Assembly: GCF_011044495.1 (NCBI RefSeq) | Contig: NZ_CP049143.1 | Location: 4,960,001 to 5,024,000, forward strand | Reading direction: 5' to 3' | DNA: 64,000 nt | Source of the DNA: Roseimicrobium sp. ORNL1 | Lineage (GTDB): Bacteria; Verrucomicrobiota; Verrucomicrobiia; Verrucomicrobiales; Verrucomicrobiaceae | Part shown: in pieces, positions 6,754 to 63,852 of the stretch | Layout of the letters: each line of letters starts with the position of its first letter | How positions within the stretch are numbered: position 1 is the stretch's first letter | Translations under genes and position numbers: made by a program | The notes under the pieces: generated by a model | Databases searched by the model: none | What the model saw: the letters and a program-made list of their open reading frames with translations, nothing else | Told to the model about the DNA's origin: nothing

Positions 6754-6922
6754 GCAAAGGAGCGTGGACACTCTTGTCCGCCGTTCTGTTGCGTAGCGAC
6801 CTCCTTCATACGGAGGCGACTGTTGACACCTCCGAAGCAGTTGGTGGAATGACGCCTTGCCTGCGAGATGAAAGAGGGTGGCGCGTCAGGGGTAGCGGAC
6901 AAGAGTGTCCGCGCTCCTTTGC
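6754..6922. repeat. GGAG-footed REP/MITE-like element, family A, copy 1
   Basis: A 169-bp element bounded by 28-bp inverted repeats with one mismatch (left arm from 6754, right arm ending 6922). Each arm contains its own small hairpin, GGACA-CTCT-TGTCC, preceded by the foot GGAG. A second copy with identical arms and similar interior lies at 63645-63804. It fills the space between two convergent genes. There is no transposase inside, so mobilisation, if any, must be in trans. Short open frames within it are artefacts of the repeat. Confidence 0.85.
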
Positions 6923-29194: not shown

Positions 29195-30676
29195 TCACTC
29201 CACGGTGAGCTCGCCACCCACCAGCATCAGATTGACTTCAGCCGGGGTAACTCCGCTGTCGGTGTAGGAGATGCTCAGGGACAGGGGATCCTTCTTGAGG
29301 GAAACCGTACCGCCGATGTTCTCCAGCACGGCGATCTCTTCCGTCCAGCCGAGATCCGAGCATTGCTTGCGCAAATCATTCACTGCGGCCTTCGCATTGC
29401 CAGAGGTGACGGTGAACTCCACTCCACTCGATTCCTTCTTCACGCCCGTGGCGCCTGCGGGAAGCTTCAGCTTCAACTGCGGCTTCGGAGCATTCTTCTC
29501 CGCAGCGAGCTTCGCCTTCAGCTTCTCACCCTGCTCCGTGGCGCGGCGATCCATTTCCGCGAACTGGGTCGGGCTCAGGTACTCCAATTGCACCTTGGTG
29601 CCGCCTTCTTTCACATCACTCATGTAGAGCGACGTCATCGCCTTCTCGGGATTGCGGAAGATGACAAAGAAGCGTCCCTTGTCCTCAATGGCGTGGTCGA
29701 GCGTCGGCTCCCATCCCAGAGTACCCATGGACGTGCGGTAGAACTTTTCCACATCTGCGCGCGTGGCAGGAGTCTGATAATCGAGCCTGCCGGTCTGGTC
29801 GGTGTAGCGCAGGTCCTGGGCATCGGGCAGCGCGGGCAGGTCTGCAGAGAGCTGCTCACTGCCGAGGTTGATCATGGTCTTGCCACCTTGCGCCGGTGCG
29901 CTGGACACCATGACCGTCAGCAGCACCGCATTCTGCTTGTAGTATTTGCTATCGCCCGCGAAGCCGTAGGGCTGCCATCCAGCCGCCTGCAGGAGCTTCT
30001 GGCAGGTCTCGGCAGTGGCGGCCACCGGTTCACCCGCGGTGTAGATGGCAGTGATGGGGCCTTCATACACCTTGGTCAGATTCGGCGGCAGCGGCACCTT
30101 GGTGAAATCCACATTGCCGTGGTTGGCCATCATCACGTCCACCTTGCCATCGCCCCCGGTGGGAGAAATGGTGAGGGATACATGGAAGCCACCACGCTGA
30201 AACGTGGCGCTCGCATATTCATTCTGGACGGCGGTGCCGGGCAGTTCCTTCCAGCCCAGCGCTTGCAGCTTCGCGCGATTGAATTCAAAGGCGGCCTTCA
30301 CGTCGCCCGTCGCCCGGTAGGTGAGGTGGGCAAGACTGCGTTCTCCGGGTCCCTTCTCCACGCCCGGCATGATTTCAAACTGCTCAAAGTCCAGCGCCTT
30401 CGCAGCCTCGGCAACCTTGGCAGGATGATCCAGCGGCGGCAGGTCAGGAATGGAAGGCGCACTGCTGGCCTTCTTCCCACCTGAGGACTCACTGCCACCA
30501 GCCGACTTGGCATCCGCGGAAGGCGACGCCTGCGTGCCACCGGCTGCTCCTGCTTCATTGTTTGCGGGTTTGCACGCCGGAAGGGAAAGCAGAGCGCCGC
30601 ACAGGATCCCGGGAAGGATGCGGTGGCATGCTCCAAAGGAGGGAATGGCAGCGGCGAGGTAGAATGACTTTTTCAT
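29195..30676 (-). CDS. Lipoprotein built from four tandem GW-motif modules
   Basis: 493 residues from ATG 30676. An N-terminal hydrophobic stretch ends at a lipobox-like LSLPAC (Cys 35), so the protein is probably lipid-anchored. A disordered Ser/Gly/Ala stretch follows (40-80). The rest appears to be four copies of one module of about 90 residues, each with a helix ending in Gly-Trp: LQALGWKELPG, LQAAGWQPYG, GTLGWEPTLD and SDLGWTEEIA. Each is followed by strands such as VSLTISPTG or LSISYTDSG. The family is unknown. It is divergent from the exported alpha/beta hydrolase gene, 201 bases apart. Confidence 0.75.
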   Translation of the reverse strand: MKKSFYLAAAIPSFGACHRILPGILCGALLSLPACKPANNEAGAAGGTQASPSADAKSAGGSESSGGKKASSAPSIPDLPPLDHPAKVAEAAKALDFEQFEIMPGVEKGPGERSLAHLTYRATGDVKAAFEFNRAKLQALGWKELPGTAVQNEYASATFQRGGFHVSLTISPTGGDGKVDVMMANHGNVDFTKVPLPPNLTKVYEGPITAIYTAGEPVAATAETCQKLLQAAGWQPYGFAGDSKYYKQNAVLLTVMVSSAPAQGGKTMINLGSEQLSADLPALPDAQDLRYTDQTGRLDYQTPATRADVEKFYRTSMGTLGWEPTLDHAIEDKGRFFVIFRNPEKAMTSLYMSDVKEGGTKVQLEYLSPTQFAEMDRRATEQGEKLKAKLAAEKNAPKPQLKLKLPAGATGVKKESSGVEFTVTSGNAKAAVNDLRKQCSDLGWTEEIAVLENIGGTVSLKKDPLSLSISYTDSGVTPAEVNLMLVGGELTVE

Positions 30677-30877
30677 GTTCGTAATGGCAATCTGGCAGCA
30701 ATGCATGTGCACACGGTTACTCCGTGTGACACACGCCTCGGACCATGGTGCGCCCACGAAGGCATGCAAACAATCTTCTCGCCCCCTTTGAGGGCAGCTC
30801 ACGGAGGCTGCCAAAAGCACGGCGAAAGCTTCGCCCGCACGGGACGTTTAGCCTCTTCTCTCCTCTTCCGCACTCTC

Positions 30878-42945: not shown

Positions 42946-43119
42946 CCTTGGACTGCGCGCAGCCCTGCTGCCGCTTTCCAGAGTCCACAGCCTGCTGTGG
43001 CGATGGTGACATGCGCTCGTGACGCGATACCTCCTTACAACTAGGCGACTTCGTCGCGGTGGAGCGTGCAGCAGGCTGCACTTTAGGAAAGCGGCAGCAG
43101 GGCTGCACGCAGTCCAAGG
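42946..43119. repeat. 174-bp inverted-repeat element (family B) between convergent genes
   Basis: The 34-base arms 42946-42979 and 43086-43119 are inverted copies with one mismatch. Inside, CCACAG-CCTG-CTGTGG (from about 42985) and GTGCAG-CAGG-CTGCAC (near 43065) form two more hairpins whose core is the same in inverted orientation but whose flanks differ while keeping pairing. There is no coding potential of its own. It occupies most of the gap 42840-43154 between the sulfatase and the RND pump. The remaining bases of that gap hold nothing I can assign. Confidence 0.85.
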
Positions 43120-53998: not shown

Positions 53999-54916
53999 AT
54001 GATCAAACTCACCGGTATCGCAGACGAAGCAGGCGCACCTCTCGACGTGCAAATCAAGGCCCACCAGGATCTGGGCTGGGACAGCATCGAATCCCGCGTG
54101 GTGGAGTTCGATGGCGTGAAGGGCAACCTGCATGAGATCCCCGAAGCCACCTTTGAGAAGGTGTGCGAGGAACTCGCCGCAAAGAACATGAAGGTCAGCG
54201 GCTTCGGCTCCCTGATCGGCAACTGGGCCAAGAAGATCGAGGACGACTTCTCCATCACCGAAGCAGAGATCAACCGCGCCATCCCCCGCATGCAGAAGCT
54301 GGGCGCCAAACTCATTCGCGTGATGAGCTACGCCGTGCGCAAGGACGCCGATGGCAACGACCTGCCCGACCAGATGGAAGCCGAGCGCATCCGCCGCATG
54401 GCTGAAATCAAGAAGCGCTTCGATGACGCCGGCCTCACCATGATTCATGAGAACTGCATGAACTGGGGTGGCATGAGCGTGAGCTACGTGAAGCGCCTCA
54501 ACGACGCCGTCCCCGGCATCCAGTGGGTGTTCGACACCGGTAATCCGGTCTTTATTCCTGACCGCGACCGCCCCGGCCAAAAGCAGGACTCCTGGGAAAT
54601 GTACCAGGCCATCAAGCCCCACATGGCACACGTCCATGTGAAGGACGGCCGCTGGAACACCGCCAAGAACGACGCCGACTACACCTACCCCGGTGAAGGC
54701 GAAGGCCAGACCCAGCGCATCATGGAAGACCTCGTGAAGTCCGGCTACGAAGGCTACATCAGCATCGAACCGCATGTGGCCGTCGTGTTCCATGGCGCCG
54801 GTTCCGCGGACGACCTCTCCCCCGAAGCCAAGGCAAAGGAGCAGTACGACAGCTATGTGAAGTACGGCCGCATGCTGGAAGCTATGCTCAAGGGCTACGG
54901 CGCGAAGCTTGGCTAA
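53999..54916 (+). CDS. TIM-barrel sugar isomerase/epimerase (xylose-isomerase-like)
   Basis: 305 residues, cytoplasmic. Metal-site residues are visible at HENCMNWGGMS (Glu), WVFDTGNPVF (Asp), AHVHVKDGR (His) and EGYISIEPHVAV (Glu), the pattern of the AP endonuclease family 2 sugar isomerase fold. Enzymes of this group act on sugars, inositols or amino sugars; the exact reaction is unknown. A terminator hairpin with a T-run follows its stop, so it is probably a single-gene unit. Confidence 0.88.
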   Translation: MIKLTGIADEAGAPLDVQIKAHQDLGWDSIESRVVEFDGVKGNLHEIPEATFEKVCEELAAKNMKVSGFGSLIGNWAKKIEDDFSITEAEINRAIPRMQKLGAKLIRVMSYAVRKDADGNDLPDQMEAERIRRMAEIKKRFDDAGLTMIHENCMNWGGMSVSYVKRLNDAVPGIQWVFDTGNPVFIPDRDRPGQKQDSWEMYQAIKPHMAHVHVKDGRWNTAKNDADYTYPGEGEGQTQRIMEDLVKSGYEGYISIEPHVAVVFHGAGSADDLSPEAKAKEQYDSYVKYGRMLEAMLKGYGAKLG

Positions 54917-54919
54917 CTT

Positions 54920-54980
54920 CGGAGGTTAGACCTCCGGTCTGACAGCGGGCGTTGGGCCTCCGGCCTGACGCTCTTTTTTT
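54920..54980 (+). terminator. Double hairpin and T-run after the isomerase-like gene
   Basis: CGGAGGT/ACCTCCG (54920-54936) is followed by GCGTTGGGCC/GGCCTGACGC (54949-54971), paired with two G-U wobbles, and then TCTTTTTTTG. The second hairpin with its T-run is a good rho-independent terminator. The two hairpins share the text CCTCCGG-x-CTGAC, so they may also be repeat copies. Confidence 0.75.
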
Positions 54981-55052
54981 GTCTGCATTGTACGGCCAGA
55001 GATTATCTCGCGAAATGGCCGCGTGAACTCACAAGCATAGCCACACGCCATC

Positions 55053-55121
55053 GGGGGCAGGAATGCCCCCGCTCCTTGACAGCATCGCCACCTCTCAAGG
55101 AGTGGGGACATTCCTGTCCCC
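55053..55121. repeat. Compact GGAG-footed REP pair (family A-like)
   Basis: Two 27-base arms (55053-55079 and 55095-55121) are inverted copies with 24 identities, separated by 15 bases. Each arm is itself a hairpin: GGGGGCA-GGAA-TGCCCCC and GGGGACA-TTCC-TGTCCCC, followed or preceded by the foot CTCC or GGAG. The three arm differences keep the stems paired. The arm resembles the arms of the elements at 6754 and 63645, but the feet point inward here instead of outward. Confidence 0.8.
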
Positions 55122-55195
55122 ATTTGCGTCATGCGTCTCCTGAGCTGGCTTGGTGATAGGGTGCATCAGTCTACACCACACCACCGCTGCCAACC

Positions 55196-56482
55196 TCAAA
55201 ACGCCTTCTTCAGCACGCGCGAGTTCCTTCCACTCCGGTCATACGCCTCGCGACGCTTGGCGGGCAGCGTATCCACCGGCACTTCCTTGTAGCCCATCTT
55301 CTCCTCAAAGAAGCGGAACGCCTGGGTGCTGAGCGCGAAGATCCACGCGCAGCCACGCTGGCGCGCCGTCTCCTCGGCAAAGGCTACCAGCTTGCGACCA
55401 TGCCCCTTGTTCTTGTGGGCGCGACGCACGAAGAGACAGGCGAGTTCCGCCGCCTTCACGCCACCTTCGAGTTCGTAGACATGCACGGCGACGCTGGCCA
55501 CAGGATTGCCGTCCAGCTCGAGCACATAAAAGTCCCCGATGCTCTTCTGCATCTGCTCACGCGTGCGAGGGGCCAAAGCGGCGTCTTCCACACTCTCGCG
55601 CATCATGGCCTGCAACGCGGGAATGTCCGAGCTGCGAGCCTTGCGCAAGTGCTGGTAGTCATCCGCGTGGATCATGGTGCCCACGCCTTCATTGCTGAAG
55701 AGCTCGGCCAGCAGCACTTCGTCCTGCCTTCCGTCGATGATGTGCACGCGAGGCACGCCTTCGTTACAAGCCAGAGCGGCATGGCGCAGCTTGGAGAGAA
55801 GGCTCGGGTCCGCGCTGGGATCTTTGCGCTTGGCCATATCCCGCGCCTGCCCCACGGAAATCTGGGCCAGCCGCTGTCCGCTGGCATCCACCAGACCCTC
55901 CTCCGCGACGAAGATGACCTTGGACGCATCCAGCGCCAAAGCCACATCCACCGCGACCTCATCCGAGTTCACGCGCAAGGTAGCGCCACGCCCGTCATAA
56001 CCCAACGGAGGCAGCACAGGAATGATGCCCTCCTTGAGCATGGCCAGAAGCATGCGCTCATCCACGCGCTCAATACGGCCTGTGTGGATGAGGTCCACGC
56101 CCTCGATGACCCCAGCGGGATGCACCGCGAGCGCATTGGGCACGGCGACACGCAACTCCAGTGCGGTGAGATCGCCCATGAGTTCACTCGTGAGACGTGA
56201 AATGGCGTCCGCGCTGACTTCCAGTGTTCCAGCATCGGTGAGACCCATGCCGTCGTCGCTGGTCAGCTTCACACCACGCAGTTCCGCGAGCTCCTGGATC
56301 TGTCTCCGGGCGCCAAAGACGACCACGACCTGAATGCTCAGTGATTGCAGCACGGCAATGTCCTGCAACAGGCTGTGGAAGTTCGGCAGGCGCATCACGG
56401 CGCCATCGAGCGCAATGACAAAGATGCGTTCCTTGAACTGGGGAACGTATTGGAGAATGCCTCTCAGGTCTTCAAATCTCAT
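55196..56482 (-). CDS. argA: N-acetylglutamate synthase, ArgA type
   Basis: 428 residues. The N-terminal amino acid kinase fold (1-290) contains VVVVFGARRQIQELAELRG, VNALAVHPAGVIEGVD-like text, and IPVLPPLGYDGRGATLRVNSDEVA, broken here as VLPPLGYDGRGATLRVN. The C-terminal GNAT domain (about 285-428) contains CLFVRRAHKNKGHGRKLVAFAE (acetyl-CoA motif A as RRAHKNKGHGRKL). This fusion is typical of ArgA, which makes N-acetylglutamate, the first intermediate of arginine synthesis. Other arg genes are not adjacent. Confidence 0.93.
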   Translation of the reverse strand: MRFEDLRGILQYVPQFKERIFVIALDGAVMRLPNFHSLLQDIAVLQSLSIQVVVVFGARRQIQELAELRGVKLTSDDGMGLTDAGTLEVSADAISRLTSELMGDLTALELRVAVPNALAVHPAGVIEGVDLIHTGRIERVDERMLLAMLKEGIIPVLPPLGYDGRGATLRVNSDEVAVDVALALDASKVIFVAEEGLVDASGQRLAQISVGQARDMAKRKDPSADPSLLSKLRHAALACNEGVPRVHIIDGRQDEVLLAELFSNEGVGTMIHADDYQHLRKARSSDIPALQAMMRESVEDAALAPRTREQMQKSIGDFYVLELDGNPVASVAVHVYELEGGVKAAELACLFVRRAHKNKGHGRKLVAFAEETARQRGCAWIFALSTQAFRFFEEKMGYKEVPVDTLPAKRREAYDRSGRNSRVLKKAF

Positions 56483-63585: not shown

Positions 63586-63644
63586 GGGATAAGATCTCGG
63601 TGCGCCTCCAAGCCGACGCGTAGTGAGCGGCGGACGCACCGATA

Positions 63645-63804
63645 GGAGCGTGGACACTCTTGTCCGCCGTTCTGTGGCGTGACGAGATCTGTCGTGTGGA
63701 AGTTGTGAGGCCACATCTCAGAAGCAGCTGGTGGCACATGGCCTCGCTTGCCGGGTAAAAGAAGATGGTATGTCAGGGGTAGCGGACAAGAGTGTCCGCG
63801 CTCC
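63645..63804. repeat. GGAG-footed REP/MITE-like element, family A, copy 2
   Basis: A 160-bp element with 23-bp inverted arms (63645-63667 and 63782-63804), identical to the arms of copy 1 at 6754-6922. The first 33 bases are identical between the copies, and GTCAGGGGTAGCGGAC precedes the right end in both. The interior is diverged. Each arm contains the hairpin GGACA-CTCT-TGTCC after the GGAG foot. Confidence 0.85.
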
Positions 63805-63852
63805 TGTGGGGGGCAGGACGCTTCACCTCTGGAGGGAATAGTTGCTCCTCAA

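Follow-up and report, generated by a model that had tools for sequence, protein, structure and literature searches.

A feet-inward pair of REP hairpins that probably joins an older arm to half a REPIN

Two short hairpins between convergent genes, at positions 55052–55122 of the 64,000-nucleotide stretch of DNA analyzed here (the window; 4960001–5024000 of a single-contig 7.96 Mb genome), probably constitute a heterodimer, arranged feet-inward (tail-tail), whose arms belong to a single REP family within a REPIN-RAYT system. REPINs have been defined as outward doublets of REPs, and single REPs were described in the same work as REPIN remnants (Bertels and Rainey, 2011; PMC3116915). The account that best explains the pair, and that we hold to be likely from the genome sequences compared, is that the cognate RAYT recognizes the REP on the strand that bears the foot, that REPINs composed of one arm subtype are what moves, and that the focal pair was left when such a REPIN inserted beside an arm of another subtype and then lost its far half. 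The observations beneath it are covariation within the stem, a subtype rule for inward and outward pairs, the borders of the outward doublet, a RAYT gene with its own REPs and two intact triples of arms.

Structure of the Focal Hairpin Pair

The first hairpin (window 55052–55078, minus strand) is of the C type, with the foot CAAGGAG, the stem CGGGGGCA/TGCCCCCG, a TTCC loop and the closing pair C-G. The second (window 55096–55122, plus strand) is of the T type and carries the same foot and loop, the stem TGGGGACA/TGTCCCCA and the closing pair T-A. Both 27-nt hairpins point their feet inward across a gap (window 55079–55095) which has a different sequence in a second similar copy and which counts 17 nt between the 26-nt arms, or 15 nt if the flanking T/A are assigned to the feet, as in the inward arrangement with a 15-base spacer described by an earlier note on this DNA. 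The 26-nt arms, CAAGGAGCGGGGGCATTCCTGCCCCC (55053–55078, minus) and CAAGGAGTGGGGACATTCCTGTCCCC (55096–55121, plus), mismatch at arm positions 7, 12 and 21 (numbering from 0), and positions 12 and 21 pair as G-C in one arm and as A-T in the other. The three differences and the compensatory change that had been noticed here are thus both present, and with one extra base at each outer end (55052 and 55122), which supplies the closing pair, the 27-nt hairpins differ at four positions that make up two compensatory pairs (G-C/A-T and C-G/T-A). Folded in isolation as single-stranded DNA, the arms reach –10.7 and –8.5 kcal/mol (z –4.35 and –3.01); the whole 71 nt of one strand folds as a single long imperfect hairpin of –25.9 kcal/mol.

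Genomic Copies and Arm Subtypes

Across the genome, the arm pattern has 161 copies at up to three mismatches and 141 at up to two, of which 80 are exact, and the backward pattern used as a control has none; the focal hairpins are not a product of chance. Arms were collected from 77 stretches fetched around 80 listed positions, in which a slightly wider pattern at up to three mismatches gave 136 arms (129 of the 141 at up to two mismatches and 135 of the 161 at up to three). The reversed sequences of these stretches yielded no match up to four mismatches and one at five, and twelve matches at four to six mismatches were excluded from the arm set, six of them being opposite-strand read-backs of a listed arm. 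From a congener (G001), 20 stretches were sampled, 19 around listed arms and one at the focal spot, with 27 arms at up to three mismatches; seven of the listed arm places fall outside this sample.

The 136 listed arms divide into 101 T arms (GGAGT...A), 23 C arms with the closing pair C-G and 12 others. Among them, the foot is conserved, and conservation is much stronger within the arms than in the sequence beside them. The last base of the foot is G in 100 of the 101 T arms, giving GGAG, and T in 13, G in eight, A in one and C in one of the C arms, where the foot is mostly GGAT or GGAG; it is not of the GTAG/GTGG kind. The GGAG foot is taken as a variant because REP-like structures with other feet have been reported, among them CnGA in class 3 (PMC6006769). 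The base preceding the foot, which lay outside the search pattern, is a pyrimidine in all 136 listed arms (95 T, 41 C) and in 26 of the 27 arms of the congener. The foot was therefore extended to YCAAGGAG, and the pyrimidine possibly belongs to the predicted cleavage site.

RAYT Genes and REP Families

Seventeen Y1_Tnp matches are found in the genome. The candidate cognate RAYT is a 216-aa ORF at genome position 1038497–1039147, a Y1-type HUH transposase flanked by outward T arms at 1038410 (plus) and 1039233 (minus), at distances of 87 and 86 bp; a single nucleotide is deleted from the right arm. This ORF scores 34.4 bits against Pfam Y1_Tnp (cut-off 23) and 75.8 bits against NCBIfam REP_Tyr_transpos (E 3.1e-21; curated cut-off 80), and a comparison with PDB sequences returned no match at E up to 1. 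Its nearest named relatives, at 48–51%, are from Prosthecobacter and another Verrucomicrobiaceae record, which makes a verrucomicrobium the probable host.

Two family A REPINs with outward feet lie in the window (6754–6922 and 63639–63810), with 113 and 114 nt between their arms, and the family A arm is identical to the focal plus arm at 18 of 23 positions and to the minus arm at 17 of 23. The spacing of over 100 bases and the similarity of about 18 in 23 given in the earlier note are accurate, but its treatment of family A and the focal pair as one REP type is not supported: the family A REP (GGAGCGCGGACA...) flanks another RAYT (7340555–7341220), and the different flanked RAYTs make the two REPs two systems. 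A third REP family (GGAGCGGCACTA...) flanks the RAYT at 30181–30852, which has a 96% homologue with the same REP in the congener. The best homologue there of the RAYT at 1038497–1039147 reaches only 63% and carries a different REP. Focal-type arms number 32 in the congener, nine of them exact, against 141 with 80 exact in the window genome (Fisher p = 0.0055).

A paralogous RAYT-like ORF at 6937809–6938468 was considered as the owner of the C-type arms and was rejected, as no hairpin was found within 1.5 kb of it. It is possibly an orphan, and it has IRPNHVH where most other RAYT-like ORFs show MPNHVH. Several further RAYT-like ORFs likewise have no REP-like hairpin nearby.

Covariation and the Folded Strand

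At stem pair 12/21, the 136 listed arms show G-C in 63, A-T in 49, G·T in 14, C-G in six, T·G in two, T·C in one and G·G in one, with neither A·C nor C·A. This position is paired in 134 arms, against a mean of 96 and a maximum of 106 in 2000 shuffles. Pair 7/26 is paired in 126 arms (shuffle maximum 112) and pair 11/22 in all 136 (shuffle maximum 131). Since the shuffles ignore the relatedness of the arms, orthologous sites in the congener were examined as well. Eleven locus pairs were compared and nine were used for the stems, the focal pair being dropped for want of a G001 arm and 2213215 because its arms differ in orientation. The nine locus pairs comprise 13 arms in the congener, 11 of which have an arm at the matching place, and in four of these 11 the stems are identical. 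A G-C/A-T double change separates the species at 4874157, where the loop variant and the hairpin-side flank are held in common, and a C-G/T-A double change together with a C-G/T·G wobble does so at 4812497, again with a common hairpin-side flank. Single-sided changes are G-C/G·T at 7405904 and G·T/A-T at 7638852, the latter with weak flanks. At the 7415803 locus one G·T arm faces a truncated arm, the closing pair at the 7415848 locus is broken in the congener (G001 47723), and 4919504 has two double changes at a site of doubtful orthology.

The claim that stem pairing is constrained, for which the earlier note had proposed an alignment of the copies, is upheld by the three stem pairs that covary far beyond the shuffles and by the double changes at two orthologous sites. 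These results support selection or repair for stem pairing, and they support matched changes that happen in place, which conversion from other copies could mimic. Covariation could also reflect copying or gene conversion that multiplied a small number of master variants whose stems were paired from the start, and two of the 51 distinct arm sequences do make up 30 and 27 of the 136 listed copies. We nevertheless think this somewhat unlikely, given the in-place double changes beside common hairpin-side flanks at two orthologous sites and the inner-pair cells of the window genome that depart from Watson-Crick pairing, nearly all of which are G·T or T·G and none A·C; conversion could still produce both patterns.

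The same wobbles bear on the strand. On the foot strand, pair 12/21 is G·T or T·G in 16 of the listed arms and A·C or C·A in none (p = 3e-5 if the arms are independent), although a C-to-T mutation bias on that strand may contribute, as loop base C18 likewise drifts to T. A G·T on the foot strand would read A·C on the other strand, which suggests that it is on the foot strand that pairing counts. The outermost pair has five C·A cells among the 136 listed arms. The 27 arms of the congener contain five G·T and no A·C at 11/22 and 12/21, with a single C·A each at 13/20 and 7/26. Two TnpAREP proteins have been reported to bind and cut the REP strand, not its inverse (PMC8266576). By the mechanism proposed here, the cognate RAYT would recognize the single-stranded, folded form of the foot strand (5'-YCAAGGAG). 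The stem would then have to pair on that strand, its bases would change in matched pairs, and G·T wobbles would be tolerated intermediates. The wobble asymmetry is consistent with a RAYT that would cleave the hairpin of that strand specifically.

The Outward Doublet as the Probable Mobile Unit

Neighboring listed arms within 600 bp form 49 outward, seven inward and no tandem pairs. In many comparisons, mostly within the 288–298 bp class, outward doublets are alike up to both outer feet and for 0–3 bp beyond; the doublets at 1179607 and 6529562, for example, agree at 94.6% over 316 bp and for 0 bp beyond. In some comparisons the homology exceeds the doublet, and in several only part of the doublet matches. 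Among the arms listed, 94 of the 101 T arms are in pairs and seven are single, one of the seven being the left arm of the RAYT, whose partner has the 1-nt deletion. The two arms of T+T REPINs share the same 12/21 type in 16 of 42 cases, which does not exceed expectation (12.5 expected; p = 0.13) and speaks neither for nor against the spread of master variants.

It is accordingly the feet-outward REPIN of T arms, and not the single hairpin, that probably represents the mobile unit. The earlier note had suggested the single hairpin, assembled in two ways, an idea to which the 18 single C or other arms, the seven single T arms and the strong conservation of arms relative to flanks would lend some weight. 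It has become most improbable with doublet homology that stops at both outer feet, with nearly all T arms paired and with three single C or other arms (2181896, 2213215 and 3757646) whose flanks resemble REPIN interiors beyond 20 shuffles, as in remnants.

All 16 outward doublets of 288–298 bp (genome 864816–7638852) hold a nested outward GGAGCGGCACTA... doublet, so that the REP of the RAYT at 30181–30852 lies within 16 of the 49 listed outward doublets; it occurs in one of the remaining 33. Such a composite, e.g., L088 (1179607–1179922), seems to be mobilized whole, with a length of about 316 bp.

Inward Pairs and the Origin of the Focal Pair

None of the seven inward listed pairs is T+T, as against 42 of the 49 outward ones (Fisher p = 1.5e-5). 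Six inward pairs join a T (or truncated T) arm to a C-type or GGATC arm, and the seventh is C+C. Mapping the copies by orientation, as had been proposed, does recover both arrangements, yet with different arm subtypes in each, so that a single REP type assembled in two ways is not supported. With the inclusion of an indel-bearing C arm, inward junctions number eight, with 15 to 96 nt from foot to foot, and no conserved spacer was found across the inward pairs.

Two intact triples are present. At 7638468 (minus)/7638557 (plus)/7638852 (minus), a C-like arm adjoins a whole REPIN between convergent genes, and in the other triple, recovered by a tolerant scan, the REPIN 7578601 (plus)/7578773 (minus) is followed by the indel-bearing C arm at 7578827 (plus). 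Five inward T+C pairs have no far REPIN arm, namely the focal pair and those at 2458798, 5665539, 7405833 and 7415803. For the T arms at 2458798 and 7405833, the hairpin-side flank resembles REPIN interiors more closely than any of 20 shuffles does. The focal flank (window 55123–55170, plus) is weakly similar to the interior of complete REPINs, its match tying the best of 20 shuffles, and the flanks at 5665539 and 7415803 gave no match against the same number of shuffles. No trace of a lost far arm was found at the focal pair. At the orthologous spots in the congener, the pairs 7405833 and 7415803 are held, while the focal pair, 2458798 and 5665539 are absent.

The two intact triples and the five pairs without a far arm together point to an older C arm, an adjoining REPIN and subsequent loss of the far half. 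Applied to the focal site, this suggests a C arm and half a REPIN: a REPIN would have inserted next to a pre-existing single C-type arm, on the side of its foot, and later lost its far half, so that the C arm, 17 nt, the T arm and a remnant of the REPIN's interior were left. It is also conceivable, but unlikely, that the hairpin has two interchangeable recognition states, GGAGT...A and GGA(T/G)C...G, with the final base of the foot and the closing pair changing jointly (between species even at the same site), and that T-state REPINs are directed to the foot side of C-state arms, which would give inward T+C pairs and never T+T.

Two further ideas were abandoned. The inward pair as a circularly permuted, inside-out REPIN was dropped because none of the seven inward C-arm flanks is REPIN-like beyond 20 shuffles and only some of the T-arm flanks resemble REPIN interior; the GGAG foot as a guide for a CTCC-type site rested on TCTCCTGA, which lies at the hairpin side of a subclass of arms, as judged by eye.

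Alternative Explanations

The inward pair might itself be a mobile unit, as a similar copy could suggest: window 55033–55170 and genome 2458750–2458887 are 83% alike over about 140 bp. This is very unlikely, considering that the common stretch exceeds the hairpins by about 20 and 48 bp on its two sides (the C-arm flank at window 55033–55051 belongs to it), that its extension on the T side enters sequence clearly like a REPIN interior in the copy at 2458798, and that, of the five T+C pairs lacking a far arm, two are old and stand at orthologous spots in the congener. Another possibility is that only heterodimers are seen among inward pairs since perfect inward homodimers, being long hairpins, are purged in replication. 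Such purging was suggested for REP dimers by Di Nocera et al. (2013; PMC3733652) and would agree with the absence of T+T among the inward pairs and with the long imperfect hairpin into which the 71 nt fold. We think it somewhat unlikely, for the subtype rule also holds at gaps of 27–61 nt, long-gap T+T inward pairs are absent too, and a near-perfect C+C inward pair does exist, albeit with 96 nt between its arms.

Gene context bears on a reading at the RNA level, by which the hairpins are maintained because they serve messages as 3'-end or terminator structures, and stems stay paired for that use instead of for a transposase. The focal pair sits between convergent ORFs that read toward it, one of 305 aa (window 53999–54916, plus), which presumably resembles a sugar phosphate isomerase/epimerase, and one of 428 aa (55196–56482, minus), which we take to resemble an N-acetylglutamate synthase-like kinase/acetyltransferase. 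By crude gene calls, which leave thirteen units inside ORFs unclassed, 48 outward pairs include 26 between convergent genes, 13 between co-directional genes, none between divergent genes and nine not classed. In all 11 single arms between co-directional genes, by the same crude calls, the foot strand is the sense strand of the gene ending there; convergent cases are uninformative on this point. Arms are moreover retained in the congener, which has no close RAYT. We consider this reading unlikely all the same: both focal neighbors meet the nearer arm on its non-foot strand, termination by a palindromic stem does not depend on which way it is turned, the left gene already has a terminator-like stem with a T-run (window 54947–54980, plus; a consensus match only), and exact copies are a smaller share in the congener, where the close RAYT homologue is missing. 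The gene context fits insertion or retention behind genes. Examples of single arms behind gene ends with the foot strand as sense strand are those at 1201169, 4812497 and 7794241.

Relation to Known REP Systems

The kind of arrangement seen at the focal pair is already known: inward dimers, heterodimers and preserved REP palindromes have been in print since 2010 and 2013. The REPIN-RAYT systems described by Bertels and Rainey (2011; PMC3116915) and Nunvar et al. (2010; PMC2817692) share with the present family a repeated outward doublet, a RAYT gene bordered by copies of its own REP, the coexistence of several REP-RAYT families in one genome and palindromes preserved by matched changes; the latter authors state that REPs remain palindromic as their sequences change, “suggesting selection for complementary mutations.” The unit of two outward REPs is found 49 times in this family, but the feet-inward focal pair is not one. 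Further differences are the foot (GGAG here, GT(A/G)G as described by Nunvar et al.), the mostly single occurrence of the C-type class and the nesting within some outward doublets of a doublet of another RAYT's REP.

Dimers of the GTAG/CGTC families are closer in arrangement. They occur as head-head (feet-outward) and tail-tail (feet-inward) forms, as homo- and heterodimers and with variable tail-tail spacers, in a set that includes the verrucomicrobium O. terrae, and heterodimers that escape clearance are discussed in the same report (Di Nocera et al., 2013; PMC3733652). Compared with the dimers as presented there, the foot is GGAG/GGATC here, and seven of seven tail-tail pairs contain a C-type or GGATC arm. 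The BIMEs of E. coli, as outlined in PMC6006769, likewise place related REP subtypes (Y, Z1 and Z2) in inverted pairs around one TnpAREP, whereas the 136 listed arms have no tandem neighbors and their subtypes differ by a foot base and the closing pair. In the REP/RAYT literature searched for it, GGAG was not found as a word, and the phrase combining GGAG with RAYT returned no paper.

The pair offers a test case in which the REP strand that folds and the unit that moves can be read from genome sequence. Feet-inward REP dimers become explainable as neighbors of two subtypes rather than as a second way of assembly. Should REPINs indeed be directed to the feet of older REPs, the preference for heterodimers that has been reported would be open to experimental test.

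Other Repeats Near the Focal Site

At the focal intergenic spot of the congener, no clean empty site was seen; the spot is occupied by another inverted repeat, judged by eye to be akin to the long inverted repeat at window 42946–43119 (CCTTGGACTGCGCGCAGCC...). On the left of the focal pair, window 54914–54973 belongs to a dispersed repeat (GGTTAGACCTCCGGTCTGAC...) with further copies in both the genome and the congener. It is present in 12 of the 77 fetched stretches, on both strands in six of these 12, and its end overlaps the terminator-like stem behind the left gene.
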